Shown one piece after another: positions 7,509 to 64,000 of a stretch of 64,000 bases of DNA (position 1 is its first letter; every line of letters starts with the position of its first letter). The stretch spans positions 310,001-374,000 of the forward strand of contig JAFCMP010000101.1 of the NCBI GenBank assembly GCA_017506865.1, read 5' to 3'. Source of the DNA: Tribonema minus. Taxonomy: Eukaryota; Sar; Xanthophyceae; Tribonematales; Tribonemataceae. The notes beneath the pieces were generated by a model that saw nothing but the letters and a program-made list of their open reading frames with translations, ran no database searches and had not been told where the DNA came from. The translations under genes were made by a program, and so were the position numbers.

Positions 7509-10500
7509 ATGAGGGCAGCTGTACCTGTGCTGGCTGTGTGCCTGTTGGCGGCGGAGCAGGCGCGGGCCTTCACAGGCGCCTTCACGGGGAGGGCGGTCAG
7601 CCAGCGCGTGGCTTCCTCTGCCACCCGCAATGGCAGGCAGATCCTCAAGGCGGTGGCGACCGCTCCCGTTGAGACTGCCTCGCTGACCAGGGTGAGTGCA
7701 GCGGTGCAGCAGGCTGGAGTGCAAGGCTCTTGCACAGCTGTTGGGCTAGGAGGCAGGCCCTGCAGGCTGGGAGGGCGTGCCAGGCGCTGAGATTCCCCCA
7801 CACCGCATGTTTATCTTGTGTTGCAGTCGCCTCTCAAACGTCAGCACTCGAAACATGCACACCACACACACCAGGCGCACGCCAGCGAGCCCCCTGAAGC
7901 TGAGACATGCATGCCTGCCTCATTGCCTGCGCTGCTGCAGGCGGCTACCGAGTCCCGTGGCCTTGCCATGGACTCCATCGCCTCCTGCCACTCGGGCCAC
8001 CTGGGTCTCCCCCTGGGCTGCGCTGAGATCGGCGCTGTTCTGTTCGGCCACGAGACAGGCCTCCTGTACAACCCAGAGGACCCTCAGTGGATCAACCGCG
8101 ACAGGTTCATCCTGTCCGCTGGCCACGGCTCCATGTTTCTGTACGCCTGGCTGCACCTTGCCGGTTACGACCTCCCCCTCGAGGAGGTCAAGAACTTCCG
8201 CCGCTACCACTCCATGACCCCCGGCCACCCCGAATTCCCCAACTCTGAGCACAACACCCCCGGTGTGGAGGCCACCACTGGCCCCCTGGGCCAGGGCGTC
8301 GCCAACGCCGCGGGCATGGCCGCCGCCGCTAAGATGGCTGCCGCGAGGTTCAACACCCCCGAGCACGAGATCTTCAGCAACACCATCGTCGCCCTGTGCG
8401 GTGACGGCTGCATGCAGGAGGGCATCTCCGGCGAGGCCGCCGCCTTTGCCGCGCAGGAGGGCCTCGACAACCTCATCATCGTCTACGACAGCAACGATGT
8501 CACCCTGGACAAGATGGCCGAGTTCACCATGAAGGAGGACACCGCCATGCGCTACAAGTGAGTGCGTGTAGGGCGGTGTTTTGTGCGAATGCAGCGCGCA
8601 GTGGCCATTGCGCAGCGCGACGCAGGTTGCCGTCTCTGCGGCGCGAATCTTTAGCGGTGCATGTTCCTGAGGCAAGATCTTTTGTGTTTCATATCCAGGA
8701 TATCCGCCTTGTGGGCATGTTTTACAGCTGGTGGGCATCAAAGGCGATGGAATTCGCGCTGGTGGGGGAGCGACGGCAAATTGCGTGGTGTGCATTTCGT
8801 TCTGCCTGGCAAACAATTTTTCTGATGACACACTGCGACCCCTGTGATATCACGTCCAGCGCCAATGCGAAGAAGTACACTTACATGCATGTCATACCAC
8901 GCCATCAGCAGTTGTACGCCTTCTGCAGCAGCACAACGGCGTGCTCGATGCGCGCGCTGCTTCCAGCGGCATTCATGCAATATCTTTCAACTGCCACAAC
9001 CTCTTCAGAATAACAGTGATTGAGCGCACAGCCATCATCATGCACAAAGAGTTGATGATTGCCCTCACCAGTTCAAGTGGATTTCATGCAACTCAGACAA
9101 AAATTAATGCGTATTCCCATTGTCCGCAGAGCGCACAGCGCTGTCAACTGACATTCGTGTGCCCAGTCAGCCTCAACACCTGTCGTTCAGCGCATGGTAG
9201 TAATAATAAGTTCACTTTGGTAAATACTAACATACCCCCATTTTTTTGCAGCTTCACCACAACTCCCGCTGCTGGAATGCGATGTTATCAATGGCTATGG
9301 ACTGGATGCGTATCTTGTTCAACCAACACACAAACATGCATTTTGTCAGTTTGTTTGTTTCGTTTCGTACCCATGCAGCAAAATTCAAACATCCCACAGG
9401 CCCTACGGCTGGCACCTTGTGACCATCAGTGGCCACAACCTTGCTGCCACGTTCATCCGCTCAACTGCCATATGCATGCATGCGCACATTTCTCATGAAC
9501 CCTTGTAACTGCCGTGATGTTGCAGATCCTACGGCCGTGACATGGTGACCATCAATGGCCACGACCTTGACATTGTGACCAACGCCCTCTGCGACTCATG
9601 AATTCATTCTCATGCAACTGCCACAAAAATCATGCAGGTCCTACGGCTGGGACGTGTCGACGGCCACGGCCTCGACCTTAGTTCACCTTATTGACAAGTC
9701 ATTGTACACGCATTCATGAATTCACTCGCGTCTCATGAATTCATTCCCCTGTCACTGCCACAATTCCCCACGTCCTGCGGCTGGGACGTGGTGACCATCG
9801 ACGGCCACGACCTCGACGCCGTGACCAAGGCGATTCATGACTTCATTATCCTAAACCTGTGCAACTGCCATGATTTCACAGGTCCTACGGCTGGGACGTG
9901 GTGACCATCGACGGCCACGACCTCGACGCCGTGACCAAGGCGCTCGGCGACGCCAAGGCGAGCAAGAACGGCAACCCCACGCTCATCATCGCCAAGACGG
10001 TCATCGGCAAGGGCATTGGCGCCGTGGAGGGCACCAACGCGGCGCACGGCGAGGCCGGCGTCAAGTACGTGGACGAGTCGCGCAAGGCGCTCGGCCTGCC
10101 CGAGGAGAAGTGGTACGTCTCGCCCGAGACGCGCTCGTTCTTCAAGGACAAGGTCGCCGACTCCAAGGTGAGCGCCGACGATGATTTGGTTTGGATAGTG
10201 CGTTTGTTGGAGTAGGCTGGCAAGCTGCAGTTTTTGAAGTTTTCGCGCAAGGCGCTCGGCCTCAGCAGTGATGAGTCATTGAGTGAGTTGCTGAAGTATG
10301 ACGAGCGCTGACTTCTTTTAAAGGTGCAGCTTGTTGAAGTTCATCTTGCCAAGCCAAAAAACCAACTGTCATATGATTTTGTTGAGGTTGCAGCTGTTGA
10401 TGTTGGCGGTATGAATGTCCGCCAACAACCCGACCAGTTCACAGCATTGTGTTTCATGCAATTTCTTGCAATTCACGGTCATTTTTGCATGTATGGTACG

Positions 10501-13500
10501 TGTCAGCAGTGCGTTCGCCCAAGGCGATTGTTACATGTTGTAAGTTGAAATTCTTCTCAACCTTCCTCTGCGCATGCACTGCGTGTCACCACAGACTTTG
10601 CACAGACGAGTAGACACATTACAGCGTATAACATCCCCACGCCTCAGTACTCCACACTTATACATACCCCCCCCCCCCCTTTATATCTACCCCCCTGCAG
10701 GCCAAGTACGCCAAGTGGCAGGAGACCTTCGCGGCGTGGAAGTCCGCCAACCCCGAGCTCGCCAAGCTCCTGCAGAATGGCATCGAGGGCAACGTCCCCT
10801 CCGCCCAGGAGCTCCTCAAGAAGATCCCCGAGTTCGACCAGACCAAGAACATTGCCACGCGCGAGGCGGGCTCCATCGTGCTGCAGCCCGTGGCTGAGGC
10901 CGTGCCCCTGTACGTCAGCGGTTCCGCGGACCTCCACGGCTCCAACAAGAACTACATCAAGAACGGTGGCGACTTTGGCGTCAACTTTGGCAAGAGCTAC
11001 GCCGGCCGCAACTTCTACTACGGCATCCGCGAGCACGCGATGGTGAGCGCTGCGGCCCGAGGAAGGGGGGGGGGGGGAAGGGGGGATGGCTAGGGTTAGA
11101 ACGAGCTGCTAGGGTCAGGGCAAGCTGCTTGAGGCACGAGGGCTGGCATGTACTTATATGGGCGTAGTTTCTGCTGAACATTGTGCATTCATTGCAGCCA
11201 TGACAAAGTCGGACTCAACACGAGTCTGCTGCTGCGTCGTCATCATGACCTAGTTGGCATGACCTAGTTGGCAATACTGCGGGCGCTTTTGAAGCTCTCT
11301 GATACTAGCTGCACTGCTGCTCGGGGGCTACATGCTGCTCGGGGGCTACATACATGCCTGTGTCTCACACAACACGCCGTGCCTCGAAGCTCGCCGGTAG
11401 CCGCACCGCCGTCAGCACCACACACCGACACGCCTGCCTCTCACACTACTCGCCGTGCTGCATATGCGTCTGCTGCGCAGGGTGCCATCCTTAACGGCAT
11501 CAACTACTTCGGCCTCTTCCGCGCATCTGGCGCCACCTTCCTGGTCTTTGCTGACTACCTGCGCGCCACCATGCGTGTCGCGGCCCTGGCGGAGCTGCCC
11601 GTCGGTTACATCCTCACCCACGACTCCATCGGCGTCGGAGAGGACGGCCCGACCCACCAGGTCAGTTTGGATGTTGTGTTGTGACTGGGTGTGACGTGCC
11701 TGGCGTGGCTTGAAGTTTGTACGGCCGTTTATGTGTATCGCGAGGGTGCTTGCGTCTTACTGCCTGCATACGCCCAAGTATAAGTGATTGATTAGTCTAC
11801 TTGAGTCGCTAGGTAATGCTCATACCACACTCCTACTTTCATGTGGTCATTGCCATACCTCAATCACGCATTTTACAGCACTGCAGTACTGGAAGGGATC
11901 GTAACCACTCAACATCGCTCAACCCCTCCCCCCCCCCCCCCCCCCCCCGTGCATCGCTTTCAAGCCCCTGCCCCCTCCAAGCCCATGCTCTGCATCTCGC
12001 ACCCTTCCCCATGTTTGTGCTTTTCTTTCAAGTGCAGTATCCCCCCTCTCGGTGACTGAACAATACCCCCTTCCCCCACCCCCAATCCTGCAGCCTGTTG
12101 AGGCGGTCTCCGGCCTGCGCGTGATCCCCAACCTGGACGTGATATCCCTCATGTTGTGCATCTCGTTCGATAGTGTAATAGTAGAAGCCTCTCCTCAATT
12201 GCTGAACGACCCCCCCCCCCCCCCCCCCCTCTGCGCCCCCCTCATGCGCAGCCTGTCGAGACCGTGTCCGGCCTGCGCGTGATCCCCAACCTGGACGTGA
12301 TCCGCCCCGCCGACCCCGAGGAGACGGCCGCTGCGTACGCGGCCTCCATCGAGCGCAAGGAGGGCCCCACCGCGCTCATCCTGACGCGCCAGAACGTGCG
12401 GACGCTCAGCGAGATCCCCGTGTCTCTGCGCCGCGAGGGGACCCTGAAGGGCGGCTACGTCGCTAAGAAGGAGACGGGCGCCCTGGAGATCATCATCCTG
12501 GCGAGCGGGTCGGAGGTGCAGTGGGCGATGGACGTGGCCAAGGACATGCCGGGGGCGCGCGTGGTGTCCATGCCTTCCATGTACCGCTTCGACAGCCAAC
12601 CCAAGTCCTACAGGTACGCTTTTTCGTGTGTAGGCATGTAACTCCAACTCCTTCGGATATGTGCTTGGCTAGGCATGTATGTATGTAGGTGTGCATTTAG
12701 GCAGTGTGCATGTAGCCGCAGTCTACAGGTACATGTCTTTGTGAATGTGGGCATGTGGCATGTGTTGTCCATGACATTCATGAACTTTTGCTGCTTTGAC
12801 AACATCCCCAAGTCCACAGATATGTGTGTACGTACAGTGTTGAGACTTACGGAAGGTGTTTTGAGAGATTGGATACATTCATTCCCCGAGCCTTATGTAC
12901 AGTACAACCTTCACAGGTACTGTTAAGGTTGAAAACTCTGTTGATATGCACGTCGATGCCAACTTATGTCAGGGAGGCACAGTGCGCTAATGTGAAGGTT
13001 GGTGCGATGTGGACAATTGACAGCGGCATTCAAACTTCAGCGGCAGTTACACGCCTGTTGTCACCAGCTGGTTTGTGAATGCGCATGACATATGCTCACA
13101 GATCAGCAACTTCAAAACACATCATCACCTACAGCGAAGTGGGTTTGATGAAAATTACAGCCTGCTGCATAGAATCAGTAAGAAGGCCAGCAACATTGAG
13201 CCTGCGTTAGGAAAGCTGTCTGTGCCATAGGCTTCATCAAAGCATGATTGTGGCCTTGAGCAGTTCAAGCTGACCTTGAGCAGTTCAGGTTGGAGTTGTA
13301 GCCTTGAGCAGTTGAAGCTGAAACTCGTACTGCAACTGGGCGTGCTTGCAGTCTAGGGCGGGAGACTCGTCGGAAATGTACGAACGTCGTAGCCTTAGGT
13401 ATACAGCTGAACTTCGCCCCTGCTACACAAGACACGAAATCTCAAGGCATCAGGTGTACATGCGCCTGAGCTTTGCCCCTGCTAGACAAGCACTGCAAGA

Positions 13501-13863
13501 CTCTCATTTCGACTCCTCTGTAACTGTACAATGGCTTGCTGCGCAGGGACGAGGTGCTGCCCCCCAGCTGCGCTAAGCGCATTCATGACATTAAATATGC
13601 ACCTCAGCCACACATCGAACTCATCTCTGTAACTGTACGTCGGCTTGCTGCGCAGGGACGAGGTGCTGCCCCCCAGCTGCACCAAGCGCATCTCCATCGA
13701 GGCGGGCGTCACCCCCCTCTGGTGGAAGTACGTGGGTGCGGAGGGCAAGGTCATGGGAACCGACAAGTTCGGCATGTCTGCGCCCGGCGACAAGGTCATG
13801 GAGATCTTCGGGATGACCGCTGCGGGCCTGAAGAAGGAAGTCGACGCACTCATGGCGGCTTAG
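7509..13863 (+). CDS. Plastid-targeted transketolase
   Basis: Seven exons join in frame to 725 aa: 7509-7691, 7941-8557, 9882-10167, 10701-11042, 11481-11660, 12252-12613, 13656-13863 (stop TAG). All introns are GT-AG with matching phases. The thiamine-diphosphate enzyme moves two-carbon units between sugar phosphates in the Calvin cycle and pentose phosphate pathway. Visible family motifs: [36 protein letters not shown] (the GDG cofactor motif), YDSNDVTLD, the KTVIGKG region, [33 protein letters not shown] and [12 protein letters not shown]. The first exon encodes a hydrophobic signal peptide ending in ARA followed by FTGAF, the cleavage context of plastid precursors in secondary red-lineage algae. 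Degenerate copies of the starts of exons 3, 6 and 7 lie just upstream in their introns. Confidence 0.95.
9400..9881 (+). repeat. Four degenerate tandem copies of the start of transketolase exon 3
   Basis: The real exon begins at 9882 (cacag|GTCCTACGGCTGGGACGTG). Earlier copies of the acceptor plus exon start lie at about 9400-9452, 9526-9597, 9638-9681 and 9772-9831, spaced 126, 112, 134 and 110 bp from one to the next. The copy at 9772 is nearly identical to the exon for about 60 bp but its acceptor reads CCCACG, so the AG is lost. The others keep AG but carry indels. The filler between copies also repeats (ATTCATGA...CATGCAACTGCCA...CAG), so each unit is exon start plus intron end. Seen directly in the sequence. 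Confidence 0.9.
12094..12144 (+). repeat. Ghost copy of the start of transketolase exon 6
   Basis: About 50 bp after a ctgcag acceptor at 12092-12093 nearly repeat the start of exon 6 at 12252: [17 protein letters not shown] instead of [17 protein letters not shown]. Similarity stops abruptly at GTGATA, where the real exon continues GTGATCCGCCCC. A C-rich tract precedes both copies. If spliced in, this copy would lose the rest of the exon and break the frame. Confidence 0.85.
12210..12251 (+). promoter_or_regulatory. 20-base C run preceding the acceptor of transketolase exon 6
   Basis: An uninterrupted C run (12210-12229) followed by ctctgcgcccccctcatgcgcag forms the polypyrimidine tract. 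The acceptor is fixed by the conserved peptide [10 protein letters not shown] in frame. Confidence 0.6.
12716..12915 (+). repeat. Weak ghost copies of the transketolase exon 6 donor
   Basis: The real exon end is CCCAAGTCCTACAG|gtacgc at 12613. Similar short strings recur downstream: GCAGTCTACAGGTACATG at about 12717, CCCAAGTCCACAGATATG at about 12807 and CCTTCACAGGTACTG at about 12909. The matches are short and decayed, so this cluster is less certain than the others. Confidence 0.4.
13547..13587 (+). repeat. Ghost copy of the start of transketolase exon 7
   Basis: The stretch GGCTTGCTGCGCAG|GGACGAGGTGCTGC is present twice: as a ghost at 13532-13587 and as the real acceptor and exon at 13642-13690. 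The ghost reads [12 protein letters not shown], then diverges into ATTCATGACATT. The real one reads [18 protein letters not shown]. The intron upstream (TAACTGTAC) is duplicated too, giving a unit of about 109 bp. Confidence 0.9.
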
Positions 13864-13978
13864 GCGCCAGTGCGCTCGCGCGCGTGTGTGTGGTGGTGGT
13901 AGTACCGGTCGTTTCTGAGCACTGCCGGTCTCCCCGGGGGATTACGGGGGGTGGTGGCCCATCGTTTTACGTACAGCT

Positions 13979-24324: not shown

Positions 24325-27300
24325 CTATTGCACGTAGCGGATGGCGATGAAGTTGGGGAATGCCTCGTCCAGCTTCTTCTGGTCCTTGCGCGACGCTTCG
24401 TACACGGCCCACTCCTCGTCTGTGAGCAGGCACTCGTCTAGCGCGCTGGCAATGATAGACTGGACCTGCGATGGGGAACATGTCGCAAAGTGTGCATCGT
24501 ACAAGGCGCCTGAGTCACAGTATATCAAAAATGCGATGCGGGCAGGCCTTGCAACATTCTTGTAACATACCGAATGGTGCTGTCGCCCATGTGCACGCAT
24601 GACTCATCGCACCAGTTGTCGGCTGTCGCAATTGATCTGGTGAAGCATCTCCATGAATGGTGGAAGCAGCGTGGCACGAGAATTCGCAGCCCTAACTTAG
24701 GGTTTGAGTGGAGGTGGCAGGCTGCACCAGTGAGAGGTGCAGGTCGGCAGCGCAGGATGCGTGACAACATTGCCTTTGCTGTGAAGTTCATGTCAGGGCA
24801 TGGATTCAACGTGCTGGCTGCATCGCTGTGATCAAGCATGCTCAACTGCAAGACCTCCACTGGGGTGCGCTGTTAGCATGAAGTTGAAGTTAGCGTGCAT
24901 GGCAACTCTCACCTGAGTAGCATGACACAAAATGTTGAAGTGGCATGTTCATCTGGTGACACGCCAACACTGGTCAGTCAGCATGGCAACGGAAGATCAG
25001 TTGGGCCTTGAAAGCAGCAACTTGACGATGCAGGCATAACGCCAGGAGTCATTCAGCAAGTGGGTGTACGGGAACGCAGCGCCAAAGCACGGCGTGTTCG
25101 AGGCGAAATCGGAAAACTGAACTCTTGATTGACAGTTGCACCAACAAAAGTCAGCATCGTCTGACAGCTATCGTCCATACCATCCACAAAGCAGCACACG
25201 CACCTTCTGATTGGCTACGTCCAGGCCAATGAAAACCAGCTCCTGCCGTCGGTCCCCGTGCGGCTCCTCAAAGTCCTCGGTGATCGCTGCCTCCTGCCCC
25301 TGCGGCCACGCCGGCCGCGGCACGCTCGCCCACCACCGCCCCAGGCACTGCATCTCGAAGTGGCGCCCCGCGTGGCTCCAGTACCTGCGCATTACGCAGC
25401 AGCACTCAACTTGTCAGCAGTGCTCAAAGCGGTACGCTCGCCCCCCGGGCACTGCGATTCAAAATGACGCCCCGCATGGCTCCATTGCGTAGCTGTCAGC
25501 AGCGCTCAGCTCGCCCACCACCGCCCCAGGCACTGCAACTCGAAGTGGCGCCCCGCGTGGCTCCAGTACCTGCGCATTAGGCAGCAGCGCTCAACTTGTA
25601 AGCAGTGCTCAAAGCGGTACGCTCGCCCCCCGGGCACTGCAATTCAAAATGACGCCTTGTGTGGCTCCATTGCGTAGCTGTCAGCAGCGCTCAGCTCGCC
25701 CACCACCGCCCTAGGCACTGCATCTCATATTGGCGATCCGCGTGGCTTCAGTACCTGCACATTGCGCAGCAATGCTCAAGTTGACAGCAGCGCTCAACAC
25801 GTTGCGCCCACCCCCGGGCTCTGCATCTCACAGTCACGGAGCAGCGCAGCACTGTCATGGTGACATTTTAGAGACGTTGCTTAGCTGCGCAATGGGAAAG
25901 GTCCCCTGGCAGCGCCCATTGCACATTACGGCGTTGTCATCTGTGATGTGAACGCCGGCGAGTACGGGCGTGCTGCATAAGCTGCCTGTCCTACCAGGCT
26001 GTGTGAGGGGTTCCGTGAAGGTACCCGGTGTGCACTGCTGCAGCGCGCATTGTCGCGCGCCAGCAACAAGATGCCTTCTTTCCGCGTCGCTGCGCGCGCA
26101 AAGCAGCGCAGCGCGCTCTGCTGTTTCAGCAGCGCTCAGCTTGTCATTACTAGGGTTAGGTAGGGTAAGTTATCTCTGAGCTGCGCATTTGGCCTGCCTC
26201 TGGCGGCGTCCACCGCGCCCTGAAACGGCGGCGCTCCGCGCGCAATGGCGCGCAGCAGCACCAGCGCTCAGGTCCCGAGCAGCGCCGCGGCCCCACTCAC
26301 ATGGCCGCCACGTCACCGCATGCGCGCCATGGGAAGTCATGAATGATTGAGGCATACACGTATGCTGCCGCAATCAGCTTCATGATGTATATGGTTCAGC
26401 ATGTGGGACTTGTCAACGTGCGGGTGCAGTGGCGTCCATCTGCAGCAGCGCTCATCATTCGAGCATACTCACATGGCCGCCACATCGCTGCACGCGAGCC
26501 ACAGGAACCCCTTCGACCGCACCAGCCGCCTCAGCGCCTGCCTTGCGACCGCCTGCTGCTCCGTCTCCGCAGCGCTGCTGCCGCCGCCGACCTTCTCCGC
26601 CACCGCCGCCGCGCTGCTGCCGCTGCTGCCGTGCCCGCCTGTTGTTGCGCCCACGCTGGCTGCCGCCTCCACCAGCGTCAGCGCGCTGCCCTCTGCTATC
26701 GGCAGCTGCAGCGGCGGGGATTGCAGCAGGGGGGAAGGCATGAGCGGCGGCGGCCGCAACAGGCTAGCGCAACGGTTTAGGGTAGGGTCAGGGTAGCTGC
26801 AGCCCACGGGTGGGTACAGGTACACAACATTGGCATTTCCACAGCCACAAGTGGAATATAATAAAAGTACACAACATTGTTTATACCACACGACGCCACC
26901 GCCATATGGCCCCTTGTGCACCAGCCAAATAGGACTTCTGCTTCTGTATGATGGCCAGCCAGATGCAGCGCACAGCTGCCGAACACTTCTTACCGTGCTG
27001 GGCCAAGCATGTATGTACTTCGAAGTATGATGCTTCTCCACGGCTCGACAGAGAGCTGGCACGTCAGCGCGCAAACGCAAGCGTCATGAGGGGTATCAAC
27101 GCAACTGGTCCGCTTTCAGTGAAAATTTCACAACTACCGCGTCTCATACTTCAAGAAGTCACAATTGACACGCTTCAGGGCACACAAGCGCACGCTACCC
27201 TGCGCGCCACGGCCACCTACATTGGAAACTCACCAGCTTGAGCAGCTGCACGAGGCGCGTCGGGTGGAACGGGCGCCGACGCCGGTACACAAAGTTGTTG

Positions 27301-46000: not shown

Positions 46001-49000
46001 AGGTGGCGGTGTACAACCTTCTGAGCTACATGTGGGAAGCGGAGACGGGCACGATGTACAAGATGAGCAAGCCGCACGACATCTACAGCGGCCTGGGTGA
46101 AGGTGACAAAAACACAGTTCCATGCACTTCTACATAGATTGAAGTTGAAGTACACAAATGCGATATCTACAGCGGTCTGGGGGAAGGTGATGAATGTAAT
46201 GAATTCATTGGTTATTTCGATGAAAACCTGAGATACAGTTGAAGTGCCCATGTGTGCGAGTGACCAATGTCCAGTTCGTAATGCAAAGAAAGCTAAGTTG
46301 AGGTATGCATGTAGGTGTCCGATACCGTACCCTTGATATATCAACTGAAGCCGGCACGATATGCATGATGACCAAGGTCGCAAGACATCTCTACCTAGCG
46401 GCCTGGGTGAAGGTGACAGACGCACAATTTTATGCCGTTGTGATGGCATCATGACCTCAACAAGTCTATCGTACATGAACTAAAGTTGAACTACACATGC
46501 GCATACACTGCCGACGCCAGGCCGATGTGATGTGCACCAACAAACCACACTGCAGCTACTGCGGCCAGGGCAAAGGTGACCAACAACAAGCTGTACACAA
46601 CGTATGCTTCGTAGTAGTACCAGTAGTTGATTTGCGCAAAACAAGCTTTAATCGGGTGGCATGCTGCAGTCGTACACCCGCCGCAATATACATCACTGTG
46701 AAGCGCGCTCCCTCTCAAAGACCTGTATTGCCAGCATCGAAGTGTTGTGAACAGTGACTTGTATGTATGCATGCAGAGGCTGCTCTCTCGTCTCCTCAAA
46801 CACCTATGTTGTACGAGCCTCAAGCCATGTAGACATGTAATCAACTTTATAACCATATCCACACTGATGAATAGTTGTCGAAGAATGTAGGGAGAGGCAG
46901 AGAGAGTCACGGAAGGAGACTTCCGTCCTCAGCTCCCTGAAATCGCCTTGAGATTGAACAACTTGGGGACAACTTCACTCTTGAAAATAAAAATGCAATA
47001 GCATTGCCTATGTGACGGATGCACGTGTGCGCGTGTGCTGCGCGCAGAGGCACCGGAGGGCGAGCGCTGCACAGTTGAAGAGCTGCTGGACACAGTTGAA
47101 GAGGAGCCCGAAGCACAACCCCAAGTTAATATGGACAGCAAACGAGGGGGCGGCGAGACCCAGGGCCCCGTGGCGACTGTTCGGCAAGAACTTCAAGAGG
47201 GGGCACCCGAGGGGGAGCAGAGCCGGCTTGCCGAGCGCTACCGCGCTGAGACGTTTGCGGGTGCGTGAACTCCTTTCAAACTTCAACTGTGTACCCATGG
47301 GCGCCGCTGCCGCGGTAGGCGGCACGATGCTGCAGCATGGGTGGCTGTCTTACGCAGACCATGAAAATGTCAAGAGTTTACTGTAGAAGTCTGTGCTTGC
47401 TGTACGAACTGACAAGCTCAAGTGTCGACGTGGAATCAACGAAAATCGAAGCGTTTCCGAGTCCCGGTACTACGAGCGCAAACAACAGATGCGCTGGGCA
47501 TACTTGTGCAGTGTTGACGCCAAAACCACCACTCGCCTGCTTTGCAGACCAAGATGGCACGCTCATTGCTCCTGGGTCTGCCACACAATCTTACAATGGC
47601 CACTATGTACAGGCAAGCATGCGTCACTGTACTTACGCTCCGTTGCGTGCTCCCCTGCGGCGTTGCAGGCGTAACGATTCACCTGCTGAGCGGGGAGCTG
47701 GGCGCCCACCTGTCGCGGCAGCGCTACCGCAGGTCTGCAAACTTCAACAAACAACTTCAAGTTTGTCTATGTTCGTGGTGTTGTACGTGCGGGTTACTTC
47801 TCCGGCCTCTACAGCAATCCGTGTGTGTAGAGCCTTGCGATGTGTAGCAAGTTAGCACCCTAAAATCACCATTGCTGAACCTCAGTATTTGCACACACCA
47901 GCGCGCACATGTGGGTTGCTTCTCACGCAGTTCAGCTCAATTGCAGTGCATCATGGCTGTTGCAGTTGAATGTCGATTTCGGTTTCCAGATCACGCGCCA
48001 CCATACCATGGACCCGGTACTGTGAACAATTGTTTGTTTTAGTTGCTGGTGTGCGGACGTGGCAGTGCTCATGTTTCACAAGTGAGGTGCTTGACGTCTT
48101 GCCTCAGGGTCACTTTTCTTCCACCATCGCCGCTGGCTCACAGGCAGGGCGCTGCACGGCACTGCAATTTCATACAAAAACAAAAAGCACATAGTCTATG
48201 TGTTCAAGTATACATACATGTAGTGACCCAGAAACGACACACGCAGGACCATCTTGTAAGGCATGCTGTTCATGAGTAAATAAATCACTTCTATGACACA
48301 ATCTTTCATGTACTTTCCTTTTCATCAGTACGGTGGTTGCTCATGTGGGGCGGTATAGCGGCCAGCTGATCATCATCATACTACTTGAGTGTCGAGTGTC
48401 TTGCTCACGGGCATTCTCACATGGTGTGATATACATCTAACGTACATGTGAAGCAGTGTGGCAACAGAAGATAGAGCGTCGCCGTCTGATGCAACCTTGC
48501 ATGTAGTAATGTGGATCGTTGTGCGATCTCTGTTCAGTCTAATACAGCTGTGGCTGCACACACTGCACGGTTGGCGCTGTGCTGAGAAGTTGAACTTTGT
48601 TGCTGAAGCCGTGGTTCACTGCGAACTTGTGTTAGTCACGCATTGCACCTCACCGCTCCTTCCCAATTGTCTCGCTGTTGCTCGCTGCCAGGGCCTTTGA
48701 TCGTGTGCATCTGAGTGGCACAGCTGCTCAGGTGAGAATTTATTATGTGGGGTGTGTGTCGGCGGGGCGGCAAATGAATTGCTGCTTTCCCAGCGCTTTG
48801 TAAAATGATGCAGGCATGCTGAGCAGTCATGAATGCGTTGAAGAGTACATCCGAAGCATGCTGCAGCGGGTTGCGTTTTGCCGCGTTCACGTGCGACAAC
48901 AGCAACTGAAGTTTGAAAGTTTGCAGTACACTGCACTGGGCTACATTCGCGCTCTACTCGATGGACAATGGCAAGTACTACGCTATGCTTGTGCCGCCTA

Positions 49001-51526
49001 CTTTGAAGTACGCACTGCGGGCGGGGGTGGCCATCATAAATCGCCAGCGCCCAGCTGACTAGCGAGTGCGCGTGACACCAGCCGCCGGCGCCTTGATAAC
49101 CGCAATGGAGTGACCGCAAAACCCCCTTGACGTGCAAAGGTACCTGCTGCTGTCAACGAGTTGCAATGCTATCTGCGCTGCCCTGAGGGCAGGCACATGA
49201 CGACCATGACTACTAGCGTTCTGGTATTTCAAACCGTATTTGCATGCGTCAAAAGTGTTGGTGACAGTGCTCTACGGCGGCTGCACGCTCCTGCAATCTC
49301 ATCGATGCATCTGTTGCGGTGCTCGCTGCTGCCGTTACGCTTGCAGTACGCGTCCAGCGCAGCCATCAACGAAGTGCTGGCACCAGAGGCCACCATTTCG
49401 GTACGTATCTTCGCTGAAGAAGAGGTGCATGTGATAGTGATGAACAAATGCTCAGTGAGCATTGCTCCCAAATGCACCTTGGAAGCGGTCATTTGTACCA
49501 GCATGCCAGTTTCGTTTTGGCCGCGCGTATTCAGGAATTGATCCGATGTGTGCCTGGGAAAATCTAAGCACAAACGCAGGTCATGTTATGTCGCTGATGG
49601 ATCGTCACTCAAACGGAGCGTCAGCTGTCAGTGACAGCAAAAAGTTGCCATGCCAAATCTATTGTTGCAGGATCTGCTGTGCCCCCATCGATCAAGGGTG
49701 ATCAAGCCCCGCTTGTCAAAATACCCATGTCTGACTGGGACAGGAAGCCACCTAGCACACCGCTTAAGCCATTTCAGCCTTGCAGATCTGTCTCTTAGCA
49801 TGCGTGCAAGAACTTCTGCGGAGCGCTGCCACGGTGCGCTCGCGACGATGTCATGGCGTGTGCTGGTGCACTGCAGGTGGACACCGCCAAGTGTCACACA
49901 TCCAGATGTCAGCCTTGCGAATCAACTTTGCGCATGCTTGTTTCACTGCAGTAGTGACGCAGAGCACTGCCACTACACGCTGCTGACCCATGTTTTCATG
50001 TGTGCTTTTGACGCCGCAGGTGTTTGCCGCCAAGTACTTGCCCCCCTCATCACATGCTCAGCTCAGCTTCGACTTCTGCATTTATGCGGAGCACTGCCAT
50101 CGCGCGCTTCTGACTTGTGTCCGTGTGTGCTGCTGCACTGCAGGTGGGCACGGTCAAGTAACACACATTCAGCCATTTCAGCCTTGGATATCAGTTTTGA
50201 GCACGCTGACTTACACTGCTGTAGCAACGCGGAGCACTGCCATCGCACGCTTCTGACGATGTTTTATGTGTGCTTCTGACACCACAGGTGGTCACCGCCA
50301 AGTACATCACATGCTCAGCTCAGCTTAGACTTCTGTAGTTATGCGGAGCACTGCCACGGTACGCTCGTGACAATGTGATGCTGCGTGCTGCTGCACTGCA
50401 GGTGGACACCGCCAAGTACCTGGTCCCCTTGCGGCCCGATCAGCAGGAGGCCTGGGTCACAAAGGTGCGCGCGATTCCGGCTGTGTGTGCCACCATCATG
50501 TTCGGTCCATTTCTTATTCTTGTTGAATGAGTCTGCGCTAGCATACCTGCTACATACCACAGTGTATTCAACTCACACCACAATGGACACACTGCGGGGG
50601 CCAAGCAATGGAATGCAACGAAGCCCAGATAGATGGTCAGTACATCTGGAGGCATGATGCATGGGTGCAGCGCAGGATGCACTGCCTTCTCAGCGCGCAA
50701 AGCGGTGGACCAGGCGATGGCCTGCTAAGTACTTGAAGTACACAAACCCTGGTAGCATCCCATGTGGTATTTTTCGCACCCCAAACGAGAATCTATGAGT
50801 AGTGCACGAATCCTGAAGTAGCGTAGTGCCCGCATGCAAGTCTCACATCTCGTCCATGCACTTGGCGCTTCGCCACTTGGCGCGAGAATTGTCAGAGCAC
50901 ATCAACGCTATGTACGAAGATCATGGCGGCACACACGTTGCCCGGCGAACGCGCCATTAGCTTGCTTCCGAAGCACTGAACGTGCTTGCTTTTCTTACAG
51001 AGGTGTGTCTTCCCGGTGTCGGTGCGCACAGTTGAGATCAACTGGCGACTGGCAAGTACCTGCGCCACTAGTCTTCAGGGCGCCCGCGCATGCGCGCACA
51101 GGGTTACGATTGGAGTAGGTAGGTATCAAGTGCGCGCAGCTCAATGGTGTTATCCTCGTGCTGCGCTGCTGCCAATTCTGCGCTCCATCCTCATAATGGG
51201 CAGGGCTTGTTTCCAGCGCGCCGGCCATTTTCACCATTAAACAACTTCAACAACAAAACCCTGTGCAAAGTATGAGGACAAGTGGTGGTGTCGTGCATCA
51301 TTTGTGTACTGAATGTTGCTGGTTTACTTGGCGCTGAGCATCATTACGGCACCATTGCATAATGCTTACTTCCCTCATTGCATTTGCGGCTCCTGGCATA
51401 CGTGCTATTCAGGTGAAAGAGATGGCGGCGGAGCGCAGCTGGACAGAGCCAGCAACTTCAACCTCTGCGCCTTCAAGTAGCGCAGCCAACGATACACTGT
51501 ACTTCCACTACAGGGCGTCGGAGTAG
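40023..51526 (+). CDS. Dynein axonemal assembly factor 3 (DNAAF3/PF22) homologue
   Basis: Twelve exons join in frame to 528 aa: 40023-40388, 40880-41090, 42462-42520, 43568-43729, 44760-44867, 45964-46096, 47048-47260, 47669-47732, 48692-48731, 49347-49400, 50402-50464, 51413-51526 (stop TAG). DNAAF3 acts in the cytoplasm in preassembly of outer and inner dynein arms, so the cell makes motile flagella. Family-like blocks: MWGFTPALDLL at the start, GHLLKT, ARHLLLLAVI, FFLEIYGN, a YDARHSVVDWDYTARLK segment, IHYKQYRKWRTNGIAFE, RGFWLDIRVGPFMPFG, QYRHNFAEVAVYNLL, TIHLLSGELGAHL, VDTAKYLVPLR. The length is close to the animal protein (about 540 aa). Five or more exon edges have ghost copies in the introns. 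Exons 8-10 are short and rest mainly on phase agreement. Confidence 0.9.
42024..42060. repeat. (CA)n microsatellite
   Basis: An ACACAC run interrupted by AT at both ends, in DNAAF3 intron 2. Shorter CA runs lie at about 61497-61512, 63508-63522 and 63829-63840. Confidence 0.9.
42779..42804. repeat. 26-base G homopolymer
   Basis: The longest mononucleotide run in the window, in DNAAF3 intron 3. It could form G-quadruplex-like structures and is a likely assembly-error site. Confidence 0.9.
42963..42986 (+). repeat. Interstitial TTAGGG repeats
   Basis: Four consecutive TTAGGG units (the last reading TTAGGG before CACG) flanked by two copies of GCACGCCCCTT-like sequence. Shorter tracts occur near 17631, 26150, 45280 (as CCCTAA), 58757 and 58850. 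They are likely repair scars or telomerase additions; the motif gives a hint of the species' telomere repeat. Confidence 0.75.
43281..43485 (+). repeat. Ghost copies of DNAAF3 exon 4 start
   Basis: The real exon starts at 43568 (gctattag|GACGTGGCGGGCGTC, then CACTACAAGCAGTACCGCAAG). Copies at about 43281-43336 (TGCTATCAG, then CAAGTGGTCATTCACTTCAAG) and about 43425-43480 keep CACTTCAAGCAGTACCGCA(A/G)GTGGCGC. Spacing is about 143 bp. The intervening GTTTTGTGCT(A/G)TC phrases also repeat. Confidence 0.9.
43787..44095 (+). repeat. Ghost copies of DNAAF3 exon 4 end
   Basis: The exon ends GTGAAGAGCGGGGAGCACAG, then GGGGCGCAAGAAGGGG|gtacgtatg at 43729. Three copies of exon end plus donor follow at about 43787-43870, 43916-43975 and 44037-44095. 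In them the donor context decays to GGTATGTATAC, GGTTGTGTG and GGTGCTTTT. Copies of CTGTACACGTACATGCC in the intron are repeated in step, so each unit of about 120 bp spans the splice junction. Confidence 0.9.
44527..45160 (+). repeat. Ghost copies of both edges of DNAAF3 exon 5
   Basis: The acceptor side GCTCAGGTGCGCGGCTTCTG occurs at 44531-44550 as well as at the real start (44760). The donor side (ACAGGCCCAACAAGGCCGCC ... TACACAACAAG|gtgaga) is repeated at about 44997-45066, 45076-45106 and, faintly, 45143-45160, with gtgagac/gtgagcc donors. The second donor copy would be usable by sequence. Confidence 0.85.
46155..46420 (+). repeat. Ghost copies of DNAAF3 exon 6 end
   Basis: The real end is GACATCTACAGCGGCCTGG|gtgaaggtgac at 46096. 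Copies at about 46160-46190 (GATATCTACAGCGGTCTGGGGGAAGGTGA) and about 46361-46420 (CGCAAGACATCTCTACCTAGCGGCCTGGGTGAAGG, shown here only by position and core) retain the donor-like GTGAAGGTGAC. Confidence 0.85.
49866..50315 (+). repeat. Four ghost copies of DNAAF3 exon 11 start
   Basis: The real exon starts at 50402 (cactgcag|GTGGACACCGCCAAGTACC). Copies after cag lie at about 49877 (GTGGACACCGCCAAGTGTC), 50021 (GTGTTTGCCGCCAAGTACTTG), 50143 (GTGGGCACGGTCAAGTAAC) and 50288 (GTGGTCACCGCCAAGTACATC). The filler (ATGCGGAGCACTGCCA...CGCTC/TTCTGAC) repeats with a period of about 115-145 bp. One copy contains an in-frame TAA. Confidence 0.9.
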
Positions 51527-51672: not shown

Positions 51673-51713
51673 CGACACTGCCGGTTGGCTGTGGCGTGTA
51701 CCAGCACTGTACT

Positions 51714-51764
51714 TTTATTATATTCCACTTGTGGCTGTGGAAATGCCATGTTGTAGGTGTGTCG
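51714..51764 (-). mobile_element. 51-bp retroelement 3' relic with 13-bp target-site duplication
   Basis: On the minus strand it begins CGACACACCTACAACATGGC and ends GGAATATAATAAA. It is flanked by CCAGCACTGTACT at 51701-51713 and 51765-51777. The duplication contains GTAC, as at the other insertions of this family. Confidence 0.85.
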
Positions 51765-52092
51765 CCAGCACTGTACTACTGTACCAGTGTAATGGGACCG
51801 AGACCGCCAGAAAGCGCTTTGATATGCCATCAGTGATGTCAATACACCGAGTCTTTTTGAGTCTTTTTTTTGGAAACAAACACTTTGGCGCCATTGCAAG
51901 TTTCTGTACTGCAGTGCCTTCAAGTTCAAGTTGAAACGGCCAGTGCACTGGCATACTGTTAGTGTACACGCTCCAGTCCGCTATACAGCTGATTGCAGAT
52001 GCAGCAGCAGCCCACAAAGTTCAACATTTTATGGCCGCCACGGCCCATTTGAAAATCTTCCATCGCGTGCTGCACTGAAAACAACCGTCTAC

Positions 52093-53263: not shown

Positions 53264-56200
53264 TCAAGCGATCGTCTTGCCGTCCTCGGTGTAGAAGTCT
53301 GTGCGCGCGACCAGAGTGTAGCCGGCGGGCAGATTCGCCAGGTCGATTTTTGGCTGGTTGAGGCCCTTGCCCTGCACCCCGATGGTGCCGGTGAGGGCGG
53401 CGCCGTCCAACTTGGTGGTGCACCAGTAGTCGTTTTGTTCGGCACTGCTGCTGACGCAATCGCCGCGGACGCAGCGGTCGCCGGTCAAGGTGACTTGATA
53501 GTTGAGGGAGTCGGTGCAGTCGATCTTGAGCGTCACCTTTGCCGTGGCGGCTTTAACGGGCGGCGGCGAAGTACCGCTGCTGGACGTCGAGCTCGAGGAG
53601 GAGTCGTACAGTGGGACCGTGACGGTGGCCTTTGCGGTGATGAGGTTCTGTGATGTCAAGCCGAGCTTGAAGGTGCCCACGCCAGAATCGATGTTCTCGT
53701 AGCCGTAGAGCGACGTGGTGTTGCTGCAGCAGGGGTTCGAGCTGGAGTAGGAGAGGCTGGTTGTGGACAGCTCTGCATCAGTGCAGTCGCGATAAGTTCC
53801 CTTGTCGAACGAGACCCTGACAGAGCTCCCAGAGAAGCTGTTATCGGGCTCGCTGCTGTCGTAACTGAAGCGTTCGAGCCGAACACTCATGGCCACAAAG
53901 TTGCCACTGCAGATGTTGGAGCCGTTGACATCACCTTTCTCGATGCTCATGTGCACGGTCTTGTCCTTGACCGTATACCTGCAGGTGCGGGACCGCACGC
54001 GGGCGGACAGTCAGCAAATCTACATCAGATCAAGATTGAATTTCACAGTGCACAGCTACATGATGATGTGCCACAGTGGTGTTTCTTATTTGCGGCATGA
54101 TCAACATGTTCAACCCGAACTTCTGTGAAGTTGTGTACTCCGAACTTCTTGAAGGTTTGCAAAGAGCAGCTGCCAGTGCAGCACAGGCTAAAGCTTGACA
54201 AACTCCCTGGGGTCATGATGGCAATCTCCGAGACCACTGGCAGCCTGAGGGCCCGCTGCGACAGGCGGCCATCGTGACTCCCAGTGACTCACTGAGCCTG
54301 GGCCAGTGCTAGTGGGTCCGACTGCCAGATTCTGCTAGTAGTAGTCACCGTGACTGTTGGCAACTACTACTACACTAAGTACCGCAGTGACCAGTAAATG
54401 GAATCCGAATCGGATGTTTCAGAATCATCACGCTGGATGTTTGCATCATGCATATGCATACTGAATCATCACGCTAGATGTTTCCATCATGCATATACAA
54501 TGCATATAATGCATTATGATACTGCACTACTGTAACAGTGCAACAGGTGAGTCAGATGCCATCGTGTACTCCTCACAAGGCTCTAACGTGTGGCAATACT
54601 ACTAGTAGGCTCACTGACACTGTCAGCCTGGCTGCCCGCCGCCCAACGGAACGTTCATGGCCCGGGGCACTGGCAGGCAATGCTCTTTCCTACTCTGAGG
54701 CTCCGAGACAAATTCTCAGTGAGTGCAATTTGTTGAACGTGATGTCCCCCTGCGTGCAACTCTGTGGAATCCGTTCCGATAGTTTACGAACTATAAAAAC
54801 TGTTATAACATTCAATTTGTGACCACTGGCAGCTGCTAGATGCAGCAGCACTGCAGTACCTGACGGTCAGCGCATGCTTGTGCCAGCCTAACTTAAAAGC
54901 TATTACTTATTATAGCTATAATACGATCATCTCTGAGACACTGGCAGCTACTAGTACTAGTAGCCACTACTAGTTGCTGTAGCAGAGCACTAACACTCAC
55001 AGCACCACTCAGCCAAAGTGTGTGTGTTAGGAGGCTTGCTTCCGTGCTCTGAAAGCACAGGTCGCAAGACTTGCAGTTGGCAGTTACATCTGACAGGGGG
55101 GGTATGGACCTGTTGGGGCTTCTACTCAGCCAGGTTGAACCCTGACCCTCAGGCTTAGCTACAAAGGTTGCAGCTTTTGTGTGTAAACACTGTGTGCAAA
55201 CACTTGGTGATACTTCAAAATCACCACAACCAGGTGCTGTGCACCCAGATGTGTCGTCGATACAGCGCATCTCGGTACCTGTACGACTGTCACAGTGTGA
55301 TGACAGTGTGTCTCGTACAGGTACTGAGGTGCGTTGTATCGACAACACTTGGGCGCACAGTGCAGTGAGCACCTCAGCTTTTGAATTTAATCTAGTCCTT
55401 TAAACAGCAGATTGAATGACCGAACCTCAAGAATTCTCATGTCACATGAGAATTCCCGGAGTGGCTACCGAAGTAATTCACTGAATTGCCAATGGTTTCA
55501 GCTGCATGCATTCGATTTACAAATCAAATTCAATTCGGTGCTTGTATCCAGTGTGACACATGTGCAATCGATGAACGCTGCACTGACTCAGAGATTCAAT
55601 CGAAGTTCAAATTGTCTAACAGACTGAGCGCGGCCACTGAGTCTGACTCAGACATATTTACCGCTGACACCTGCAGATACCTAGCGCAAGGTACGTCCGA
55701 TCAGCATATTCTACATACACTTGTTCAACTCGAAAATAGCCCCCACTGAGAAGTCACTCTGAGTGTCAAATTGAAATATTACTTTCAACACAGTGACTGT
55801 CAGGCCTGTCGTGCCATCAGTACTGACTGCAGTGATTTGTCGGCCGGGCCCTCCTTGAGCCCTTAATTGACAAGAAAGCGACCTCAGAAGCTAGAAAGCG
55901 ACATGGGTTTACAGCCAACAACTTGAATAATGATCAGCCCAAACGACGCAGTTGAAGTATCTCTATGATGTTGAGTCACCATAACCCCTTATTGTTGTGG
56001 TCGGCGCTGAGGAGAGTTTGTTGATATTGAAGTTTCAAAAGTTCAAAAAAGTGTTGGAGCTCAAAGAGATGAGCTAATAAATCTGAGCATCAGTTAAAGT
56101 TGGGCTGTTGAAGTTACCCATGTCCTGGTAATCAACTTCAATTTAAAGTTGAAGTAGGTCATTCGAATCGTTCGTTTTCTGTGAATGCAATCATAAATTG

Positions 56201-57827: not shown

Positions 57828-57915
57828 CAGGGGGGGGGGGCAGGGGGAAAAAAGGGAGAAAAGGGGGGAAAAGGGGCTGGGGGGAGGGGGGGGGGGGGGG
57901 AGGGGGCGGGGGAGT
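57828..57915 (+). repeat. G/A-rich stretch with long G runs
   Basis: Many runs of four or more G, including runs of about 11 to 14, are separated by A-rich spacers. It has strong G-quadruplex potential on the plus strand. It lies upstream of the minus-strand secreted-protein gene. Confidence 0.8.
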
Positions 57916-58433
57916 GGGAAGTTGGACGGGGAGCGGTGCTGGAGCAGGCAACGGCGAGCGGCGGAGGCATCACAAAGTTGCCGTCTACGTTCCATGTGTC
58001 GAATTCATCGCATACAAGCACTCGGGGCCTGAGGGGGCAGTTTTCGCTGCAGGAAAAACAGGATTTTTTTCAGGAATTGGGCGACTTTTGGACAGGAAAA
58101 AAAAAAGGAATTTGGGGGGAAACAAAAAAGGCTTTGTGTCAGGGCCTTCAACAGGCTGACAGCAGCCTGAGAGCGCAATGATATAAGATACTATAATATC
58201 ACTGGCATACTAAGGTTTGTGAGAGATGAACACACTGCCAGTGGCAGCTGCTGCAGCTGCTGCAGCTGTGTGCACGCAGAGCATGTGGGGCTCTCTGTAG
58301 GGCTTTGTAGGGCCTGAGATGTCATAGCCAACAATTGGCGAGTTCTTTTGCAGAAAAACATTTGGGCAACAAGTCGGACTCCGCTGCTGTTTGAAAAGGG
58401 AGTAATTGCTGTCTGTCAGTGCACTACTAGTAC

Positions 58434-58562
58434 TTTTATTATATTCCACTTGTGGCTGTGGAAATGCCATGTTGTAGGTGTGTCGCCTTGTTTTCACTCT
58501 TGCCAATGGGTACTTTTTATTAATTCTCGCTCAGGGCGCGAAAAAGCCCAGATGATTGGCAT
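58434..58562 (-). mobile_element. Mosaic retroelement insertion joining two 3'-tail types
   Basis: Flanked by CTACTAGTAC at 58424-58433 and 58563-58572. On the minus strand the insert starts ATGCCAATCATCTGGGC, runs through the LINE tail to AATTAATAAAAAGTAC, then continues CCATTGGCAAGAGTG into the second tail type, ending GGAATATAATAAAA. So a LINE 3' end plus what would be its downstream flank were inserted as one unit. Confidence 0.75.
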
Positions 58563-58965
58563 CTACTAGTACTATAGTCATGACCGCTGGATCATCGTAT
58601 TGTTTACAAACAAGACCTTGCTGTCTGTCGATTGCATATTGCACAACCACAGTGTCTTCATCGGATTCCGACGATTCGTTGTTGAGAGTCATGGTGCAGG
58701 GTTCCACCTCAGCTAACCCTACACGTAGTTGCGACTAGTCACTGTGACAGCAGATGGACGTAGGGTTAGGGCTTAGCCTAAGGCTACTAACTATTGGAGT
58801 AAGTTACTAACACTTTTAGTTAAAGGTCATGCTATAGCAACTAAGCTGCTATGGGTTAGGGCAGGTTTTCCACAACTAATAGCTCGAACATGGTGCGAAC
58901 ATCAGAATCTGATTCAGTGCGGTCTGACACATTTCAACATGGCTATGCACCCTTAAGCTAGTAGT

Positions 58966-59045
58966 ACTGTCATACGACATGTAGATTCCTTACAGCTAGA
59001 TGCCAATCATCTGGGCTTTTTCGGCCCTGAGCGAGAAGTAATAAA
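58966..59045 (+). mobile_element. LINE 3'-tail relic
   Basis: Starts ACTGTCATACGACATGTAGA and ends CGGCCCTGAGCGAGAAGTAATAAAAAGTAC (given here by core). It closely matches the end of the LINE at 36.26-36.34 kb, with CGGCCC for CGCGCCC. Plus orientation, 5'-truncated. Confidence 0.85.
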
Positions 59046-60788
59046 AAGTACTCAGTAGTATGTACGTATGGACTTGTATTACTGACTGATGTGGTACACT
59101 GTAATATCAGCTCCAGGGCCCGGGCGCCTAACCCACACTTTCAATTGATACATAAAATGACCTATTATAGTCTAAGAACACATTTATAAATCAAGTGACC
59201 TATAATAGGCATGCTGCAGCTGGCCAGCACTTTTTTAAAGATGAAGGTTTAACCCAATGGCATAATACCGTAACGCAAAATAAAACATCGCAGGCCCGCC
59301 ATTCAGCTAGTTGGCTCGTACAGCGCTCTTTGTGCCACTTACACATGGGCGTGTTTCGAAAAAAAAGTTTTCCTTGAGAAAGAGTTGTTGAAAAGTAAAA
59401 ATGCACAATGCCATATGCAACAGTGATTTGAGGTCATGTGCACGCTGTGGAGCATATATTTACACATCAATAGAGATCACAGTTCATCGTCACCATCACA
59501 CTCAGTCTGTAGGTTTGTGTGCCCACTCGCGTGTCAATGTGCGGGTACAGCCACTGGTAGGCGCATGCAAACGATTAGAGGTCAAGTGCTGGCCATTCAA
59601 TAAATTACTGCAGATTCGCGCATGCAACGCATGTTATAGCTGGTTCAACAGCCAGCCTGCTCTGCAAAACGCTAAGTCACAGTGCAACAGTGCTGGCGAC
59701 GTTGTCGCCCGCAACACAGCACTGTCGCCATGGCAGCACACGGCAGGCAGCAAAGCCTGGAGAGAGCGTCTGAATGGATAGTCCGACAATTTGACAAGTA
59801 ATGCAGTACAGGCTGCAAAGGATGGTGCACAGCTTGAAGGCTCTGAGGAATGCCCAACAAAGTACACTGCAAGCTGCAACTTGAAGGACTGATGGAGTGC
59901 TTAGCACAGGCCAAAACATGCATGCGTGCGCTATCATTTGCGAAACTTTTCAAAAGCCCCATCAAACCCCCAGTTGTCAGCAACATCTAGCTGCACGATG
60001 CAGACCGTGCCCGTCCACTCGTGTATGTGCTACCCTCCGTCCTGACGTACGAGGCTGAAGCATGTTCCAGGCCGGCTCGAATGACATTGGTGTGCGCACA
60101 GAAACGAGGCAAAGCAAGTGCACGCCCCTCGCCGGCGTTCCTGCTGCCGCGTGGATATGTTGCGGGGATTTGAAGCAGCTTCATCACTGCGGCGTCAGGC
60201 TGATAGAAGCCGGCCGCAGCTTCTTTGTTTGGCTCACTGGCTCACGCACATGGCAGCTGTCAGGCACCTGGCATGAAGCATGCAACAACGCAAGCACGAG
60301 CACAACGGTCAGCGCCTGTAAGCTGCGAGCAACAGATGAGGGACGAACACTGTACAGCCAACGCTTCGCATCTTGCGACAGTTGTACGCGCCATGGACAG
60401 AGTACGAGCGTGGCACGTTGAATTTGGCTCCGGTGCTAGGGGGCATTACCATGTATCAAATGATGCGGTTGTCTGTGCCCCGGCCATCAGAGCCTGGTAT
60501 ATTATCTTCCGATGCTATCTTAGGTGGCCTCGCCCGGAGGCAACAGTGGGCGGGCCCCCAATGGGTTTTGATCGGTATGTACGGAAAAGGTTGTTGTGTG
60601 TCATAATGAACCACTGAAAAGAAAAGTCTGCAAAATTGACCACCAACGTTGATCGACATGTGTGTCTGAGCGCGCAAGATTGCCACACAGCAATCAATAT
60701 GACGCTGCCAGCAAATGCATCCGAAGCGCGATGCGCATTGAAACAGCTCATGGTCACAACGGCAGAGAGCACCTCTAGAGGTGTGTAC

Positions 60789-60984
60789 TTTTATTATATT
60801 CCACTTGTGGCTGTGGAAATGCCATGTTGTAGGTGTGTCGCCTTGTTCTCACTCTTGGATGTAGCATGCAAAGCTTGCACGCCACACCCCGCCCCCCACA
60901 TCACCCCCAACAAAGCACCCGCAAGCGACTGTCCCCCACATACTAGCAGGGATACCAAACAAAGCTACAAGACTCTCCCCCCAC
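60789..60984 (-). mobile_element. 196-bp retroelement insertion with 12-bp target-site duplication
   Basis: Flanked by AGAGGTGTGTAC at 60777-60788 and 60985-60996. On the minus strand it ends with the same CGACACACCTACAACATGGC ... AATATAATAAAA tail as the relics at 51714 and 58434. It shares AAGAGTGA(A/G)AACAAGG with the latter, then has a different, longer 5' part. Confidence 0.85.
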
Positions 60985-63052: not shown

Positions 63053-63393
63053 GTGAGTGGCGCGGCACGTCACTCATGTTGAAGACACGCCATGTAACTT
63101 CAAGTATTTTCAGAGTCTTCCGTGTCATCGTAGCGCCTCAAGGCATCCTGTGAGGGCCGGCATTCGGCGCTGTTTACAGTGTGCTGCAATCAGCAAGCTG
63201 CCTCCTGACCCATGAACTACAACACGCGCATTAACGTTGACATAGGTACTCCAAGCATGCTCCTGAACCTCACAGCAAAAAGCCAGGAATTGTTTCTGGC
63301 TTGGGGACCCAGCGTGCCATCAGTGACTGACAGACGCTGTTGTGGTGTTGGCATGGGATTGTCGTGAATGAGTAACAGTTTTTGATCCTGCAG

Positions 63394-63976
63394 CGATTAA
63401 ATTGGGCTCTGGCTCTGAGGCAGCTCGCTTTCTGGGGGGCTGGCAGATGCGGTGGCTCATCTAGCGGGTATGCGGACCACAAGCAGGCTTTCACGCGATC
63501 GACACAGTCACACACACACACAGCAATGTGTAACTGCCGTAACTGACTCTGAGCAAGCGCAATGCTCCACGTGCGTCGCGGTCCCGCAGAGATCAAATGT
63601 GTTTTCAGAGTTGCAGATGCAGCGTGCGTGCGGTCTGGGCCTGGCAGATGCAGTCAAAGTGGTTACTCGCACGCCCAGCAACATGTAACTGCCGAAACCG
63701 CTGCTGAGCAATGCTCCACTCCTTCGCGTCGCTCCACTGTTTCGCGGCCCCCCGCAGATGTCAAACATGTTTCCGGCTCTGTGGGGCTAGTGCGCGGACT
63801 GAGCCTGGCAGACGCAGTCAATGCGGTCACACACACACACCAATGTGTAACTGCCGTAACTGACTCTGAGCAATGCTCCACTCTCTCGCGGTGCTCCACT
63901 CCTTTGCGCAGAGATCAAATATGTTCCCGGCTCTGTGGAGGCAGCATGCGGACTGGGTCTGGCAGACGCAGTGCAG
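63394..63976 (+). repeat. Four ghost copies of the start of the next HIS1 exon
   Basis: Copies begin after cag at 63394, 63590, 63758 and 63912. The last three read AGATCAAATATGTT-like, then GGCTCTGTGGAGGCAGC, then GGACTGGGTCTGGCAGACGC, that is KYVPGSVEAACGLGLADA in the best copy. This is the conserved HisG segment around the PRPP site. Each copy breaks off after ADAV. The filler TAACTGCCGTAACTGACTCTG and GCAATGCTCCAC repeats with a period of about 154-168 bp. The window ends in acacgcgcag, an acceptor where the intact exon may begin. Confidence 0.88.
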
Positions 63977-64000
63977 TCAGAGTGTTGCTTACACGCGCAG

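Follow-up and report, generated by a model that had tools for sequence, protein, structure and literature searches.

In a small sample of loci, exon edges of the xanthophyte Tribonema minus have been duplicated, often repeatedly, into roughly a quarter of the adjoining introns. In a 64,000-bp stretch of its genome (the window), and just past the end of it, 12 exons in four unrelated genes, encoding a transketolase, a CobW chaperone, DNAAF3 and HIS1, are accompanied by what we call ghosts: decayed tandem copies of an exon edge, including the splice site and the adjoining intron, that lie inside the neighbouring intron. The initial annotation of the window had described these copies, and a census that includes additional loci confirms that they are real and exceed chance expectation. 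Among the explanations it had proposed, a mutational process is the one favoured by the data. Our reading, to which we assign a probability of about 0.6, is that the ghosts arose as ordinary short tandem duplications, spaced mostly ~90–460 bp apart, and have since decayed neutrally; such duplications would be commoner in or near exons.

The transketolase gene, on the plus strand, has ghosts at 3/12 edges. The acceptor edge of the exon at 9882–10167 (gene model; joined as modelled in the transcript protein P0001) is represented by four ghosts within 9362–9832 (9362–9460, 9488–9590, 9598–9700 and 9732–9832), detected by self-BLAST, census and alignment. One acceptor ghost each belongs to the exons at 12252–12613 (ghost at 12015–12143) and 13656–13860 (ghost at 13516–13582), both recovered by self-BLAST and in the census. 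The predicted protein was reported as 100% identical to a transcriptome protein over the full query, with one substitution visible on reading both sequences, and among the named matches that of Vaucheria litorea is 87% identical. The HIS1 protein matches the annotated ATP phosphoribosyltransferase of T. minus (P0121), and the protein searches also name the relatives Chrysoparadoxa, Phaeothamnion and Ectocarpus. Its exon at 64069–64274 (L028:69–274), just past the window end, has both edges copied; three acceptor ghosts on the plus strand at 63545–63965 (census, alignment) are skipped by P0121.

DNAAF3, also on the plus strand, has ghosts at 6/12 edges. Both edges of the exon at 43568–43729 (gene model; Pfam, DUF4471) are copied. 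Three acceptor ghosts occupy 43142–43481 (43142–43198, which is weak, 43239–43342 and 43402–43481; self-BLAST, census), and donor ghosts occupy 43784–44117, two of them scored in the census (junctions near 43861 and 44093) and a third, at 43915–43975, seen by self-BLAST. The exon at 44760–44867 likewise has an acceptor ghost at 44467–44549 (near-repeat search, census) and donor ghosts at 44995–45165, two from the census and a third, weaker one from alignment. Donor ghosts of the exon at 45964–46102 extend over 46150–46605 (two in the census, a third at 46150–46210 by alignment), and four acceptor ghosts of the exon at 50402–50464 lie at 49814–50301 (self-BLAST, census, alignment).

In the CobW gene, on the minus strand, two exons have copied acceptor edges and two have copied donor edges. 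The exon at 25204–25384 (gene model, Pfam) has two acceptor ghosts at 25509–25838, with a 185-bp unit and 88% identity (self-BLAST, census), and the exon at 29141–29293 (gene model, Pfam, alignment) has two at 29401–29594 (self-BLAST, census, alignment). Two donor ghosts of the exon at 38581–38676 (Pfam, alignment) lie at 38152–38461, one of them scored in the census (self-BLAST, census, alignment). For the exon at 37361–37459 (Pfam, alignment), three donor-edge copies are found ~6.7 kb downstream, at 30315–30666 (self-BLAST, alignment), a gap that suggests a later insertion into the intron; ~6.5 kb at 30700–37250 seems to have been inserted there, parting the exon from its ghosts. Separately, a histidine-rich region of a CobW exon (27332–27617) contains an in-frame 126-bp duplication with 60-bp sub-repeats that has been retained as protein.

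The census took in the 250 splice edges of 125 introns, each 150 bp or longer, in a total of 257 kb. Ghosts spanning the junction, 63 in all, were found at 37/250 edges and in 31/125 introns, against 12/2500 in random introns. Within these 257 kb, the self-alignment of adjacent versus non-adjacent exons that had been suggested as a genome-wide check shows an excess at adjacent exons. An alternative score, applied after 35 predicted exons that were short or resembled copies had been set aside, gave 20/123 acceptors and 17/123 donors, with 6/1230 and 7/1230 in the control. In the wrong-side intron of the same exon, 0/88 acceptors and 0/88 donors were positive at score 50, and 2/88 and 1/88 at score 40. 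Copies occur on both sides, as first noted, at 22 acceptor and 15 donor edges, with one to four ghosts per edge in the census where up to five had been counted.

Pfam confirms CobW, DNAAF3, HisG and several genes at other loci, and where a gene is supported by Pfam, a transcript or annotation, 25/128 edges are positive (individual exon edges still being predictions). Of the positive edges, 15/37 lie in the window or L028 and 6/37 in a kinesin gene (L027) that was picked for its many exons and has ghosts at 6/16 edges. Omitting these three leaves arbitrarily placed loci, with 16/172 edges positive by hand count. The census retains some edges whose exons are predicted and lack confirmation (L009 6094, L013 8997 and L023 579 are examples), as well as one edge (30586) that is itself a copy of the CobW exon at 37361–37459, and 2/63 ghosts (CobW 25384, distances 104 and 289) resemble out-of-phase secondary alignments.

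Ghosts are far from universal. The proposal that nearly every intron grows by junction duplication is not supported: 94/125 tested introns have no ghost, and there were none at the edges of a dynein heavy chain (0/16), TTL/DnaJ (0/12) or peroxidase gene (0/12). The first exon of the peroxidase, whose start was mis-called, has two copies despite that score. An earlier list of 38 edges and 64 ghosts underlies our figures for heterogeneity, intron length, unit length, array age and the pairing of edges. The ghost rate differs among gene chains (chi-square 59.8, 26 degrees of freedom, p = 2e-4). There is no difference in guanine-cytosine (GC) content between edges that have ghosts and edges that lack them. 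Introns with ghosts have a median length of 1096 bp (811 bp after the ghost stretch is subtracted) versus 505.5 bp for those without. Even edges with no detected ghost score slightly higher against their own intron than against random introns (mean 17.9 vs. 16.4; acceptors p = 4e-5, donors p = 0.03), a difference that either older ghosts or local composition alone could produce. A similar repetition of exon ends is seen in kinesin paralogues elsewhere in the genome (e.g. on contig C168), so the phenomenon is not limited to the loci examined, but among 132 listed matches of the kinesin family only about one has a strong adjacent copy by eye, making such copies rare at that sensitivity.

The copies are local, direct and tandem. 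Self-BLAST of the window returned 33 near matches (<6 kb), 32 direct and one inverted, and a separate count of near repeats gave 169 direct versus 5 inverted. In 29/65 clusters the alignments span at least 85% of the spacing, indicating a head-to-tail layout; the remainder are too decayed or gapped to judge. Over the 65 clusters the spacing has a median of 172 bp, within the 100–190 bp originally estimated for the unit, and a wider range than that estimate (quartiles 126–232 bp, 5th–95th percentile 87–459 bp). Three array-bearing stretches searched against the whole genome each occur once, in a search that skips very common words. At other places in the genome they match exons of paralogues, a distinct dispersed repeat or short segments with low scores, and these searches found no allelic versions with and without ghosts. 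An assembly artefact, or a collapsed or expanded repeat, for which no supporting evidence emerged, has a negligible chance of explaining arrays that occur once in the searched stretches and copies that are mostly 5–30% diverged from their parent and structured by codon position.

Are splice edges a target of duplication? The exon part of the duplicated unit has a median of 52.5 bp (10–90%, 19–85 bp), slightly short of the 63.5 bp expected under uniformity (Kolmogorov–Smirnov (KS) p = 0.02) and not far from a uniform distribution. The scattered positions of the breaks show that the splice site itself is not the anchor, contrary to the initial annotation. Nonetheless, 27/36 gene-body clusters cross an edge, where uniform placement predicts a fraction of 0.19 (largest of 300 simulations, 0.36). 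Clusters inside an exon are few: one under a strict rule (the in-frame 126-bp CobW duplication) and four under a looser one. The main rival is that short tandem duplication occurs uniformly, with no hot spot at exons, and that edge copies are more visible and longer-lived since half of the parent is conserved, undeletable exon. An exon-blind test, in which introns were searched alone, gives conserved exon sequence no advantage. Here 22/27 clusters derive from an edge (11 touch the edge and 11 are counted since they overlap a ghost), against 9.3 under uniform placement (standard deviation (SD) 2.4, largest 18 of 2000 simulations), and 12/16 do so in confirmed genes by hand count. These numbers argue against uniform duplication, which we regard as unlikely, although the near-uniform exon part speaks for it. 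We rejected a rather flat sliding profile as evidence against edge enrichment, since ghosts within introns themselves count as matches there.

Several results nevertheless weigh against our preferred reading, and some of them favour uniform duplication. In the strictest placement test, in which whole clusters were dropped at random within their own locus, 39/65 overlap an exon versus 28.4 expected (SD 3.7, largest 40 of 500). We think that this null is probably over-strict, because the unit before duplication was shorter, yet the size of the edge excess is uncertain. The fraction of 50-mers with a local copy is similar in introns (0.078) and unassigned DNA (0.073), compared with 0.123 at junctions and 0.052 in exons; over half of the matches in unassigned DNA come from L016, a CBP20-like gene with missed exons, and the GC-rich L009. 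Among terminal edges of the coding sequence (CDS), 5/34 have a match (three in L009, one a mis-called acceptor in L010 and one a weak alanine-rich match), and once L009 and the mis-called acceptor are set aside only 1/24 is positive, and weakly so. A hot zone extending over whole exons would predict otherwise, but few edges are involved. The age gradient within arrays is weak (19 vs. 12), and the duplication mechanism itself leaves the edge excess unexplained. The sample also calls for caution: the window was picked because of its exon-edge copies, the sequence examined amounts to 0.16% of a 158-Mb genome in 554 contigs, and the gene models come from a self-trained gene finder trained on the window and the other sampled loci themselves.

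The apparent sparing of terminal CDS edges would also fit a mutational process linked to splice junctions or to their transcription (e.g. through breaks where R-loops or nucleosomes border exon edges) that specifically duplicates junctions on both sides of an exon. Acceptors and donors are both affected, the two edges of one exon are copied together more often than expected (odds ratio 12, p = 5e-4), and the exon parts fall slightly under uniform length. However, the breaks keep no fixed distance to the splice site, and the pairing of edges may merely reflect hot genes, given the heterogeneity described above. We consider such coupling quite improbable.

Judged from sequence, the ghosts decay neutrally and we found no sign of function. 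Identity between ghost and parent is 0.857 at codon position 1, 0.869 at position 2 (0.863 for both), 0.788 at position 3, 0.780 in the intron part and 0.889 at the GT or AG, and the differences by codon position are the pattern left by a constrained parent and an unconstrained ghost. By length, 24/63 ghosts are frameshifted, and two have in-frame stops. A functional role in splicing, as raised in the initial annotation, would have the ghosts act as decoys or alternative sites that tune it. In its favour, both GT or AG bases are intact in 51/63 ghosts. That retention is nevertheless what neutral decay predicts: splice dinucleotides are not preserved above codon positions 1+2 (difference 0.026, 95% interval -0.042 to 0.089). 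Of the copies, it is the one adjoining the exon body that stays in frame with the gene model. Each array sits within one intron in P0001 and P0121 and the used edge is that at the exon body, and for the ghosts they cover these protein records, together with P0003, a second transketolase record, show no use of acceptor ghosts (P0001 skips them in three transketolase introns, P0003 in two). A function in splicing thus seems very improbable.

P0003 is a transcript isoform with a different 3' tail of 14 residues beyond the exon ending at 12613, so transketolase isoforms other than the modelled one do exist. A search of 1.4 kb of the following intron did not reveal this tail; a strain difference or an unseen exon might account for it.

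Under our preferred reading of neutral relics, error-prone break repair (fill-in of staggered breaks) would create short tandem duplications, and these would arise more in or near exons than deep within introns. Units wholly inside an exon or covering it would be purged because they alter the protein, while units crossing an edge would persist, since the spliceosome still selects the copy attached to the exon body. Recurrent events of this kind would lengthen some introns and leave others untouched. A bolder version holds that T. minus has a process duplicating exon-intron borders several-fold more than elsewhere, and that many of its long introns are layered edge copies, mostly decayed beyond recognition; we put this forward tentatively, as somewhat unlikely.

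Other features of the sequence stand apart from the ghosts. L009 (G000:C1:50001–60000) has 72% GC, compared with ~57% for the whole sample, and long overlapping open reading frames, four of which match no Pfam family; it is possibly an integrated foreign element or contamination. At L013:2110–2300 lies a dispersed repeat of ~190 bp. Many other contigs contain it at 86–92% identity, and 40 bp of its end often recur in inverted orientation ~250–300 bp away, a layout like that of a non-autonomous DNA transposon. The window itself contains a 50–75-bp element, 98–100% identical and on both strands, at 26824–26873, 51708–51766, 58430–58502 and 60782–60857, and a second such near-identical element at 36254–36342, 58507–58565 and 58966–59054. 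A long open reading frame with high GC at third codon positions (248 amino acids, minus strand, 53267–54010) has no Pfam match.

In our view, intron growth by routes other than transposons is poorly known. Should duplications across exon edges prove frequent and mutational in origin, T. minus would supply neutrally decaying copies beside their parents, thousands or more of them by plain extrapolation from 63 ghosts in 257 kb that were in large part not a random choice. These copies would then provide a direct means of testing how introns grow, what the neutral rate is and how the spliceosome picks the correct one among several near-identical sites. Among known processes, tandem exon duplication can yield alternative exons and resembles the present case in placing tandem copies of exon sequence in the neighbouring intron. 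It duplicates the whole exon with both sites, whereas the units in T. minus mostly comprise part of an exon and one splice site and are decayed; the exon part has a median of 52.5 bp, and 1/65 clusters spans two edges. Introner elements are a shared, dispersed family found across many introns. They too represent a growth process common to many introns, but the T. minus arrays are unique to their own locus in the three stretches searched.

Among the open-licence PubMed Central papers listed by our searches, judged by titles and abstract openings, none described such exon-edge copies in Tribonema or elsewhere. The closest mechanistic parallel is the formation of small tandem duplications through break repair (staggered-break fill-in, CST-Pol alpha) in other species (PMC8355091). 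The likeness lies in short direct tandem copies that involve no mobile element. The insertions described there are mainly <100 bp, whereas the spacings in T. minus are mostly 100–250 bp and skewed to exon edges, and the enzyme and break type are putative here, decay having blurred the breakpoints of the copies. In fly lines, 1901 duplications, mostly tandem, with a median of 367 nt, included 624 touching exons (as quoted in PMC2891723). In the brown alga Ectocarpus, autosomal introns have a median length of 524 bp and tandem repeats are described as relatively evenly spread over the genome, though this concerns a relative and a different measure (PMC12477816). Finally, intron gain by tandem duplication of exonic sequence containing a proto-splice site, as outlined by Lehmann 2010 (PMC2891723), also involves a duplication that touches both splice signals and coding sequence. 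The outcome in that case is a new intron within coding sequence, whereas in T. minus an existing intron appears to grow.

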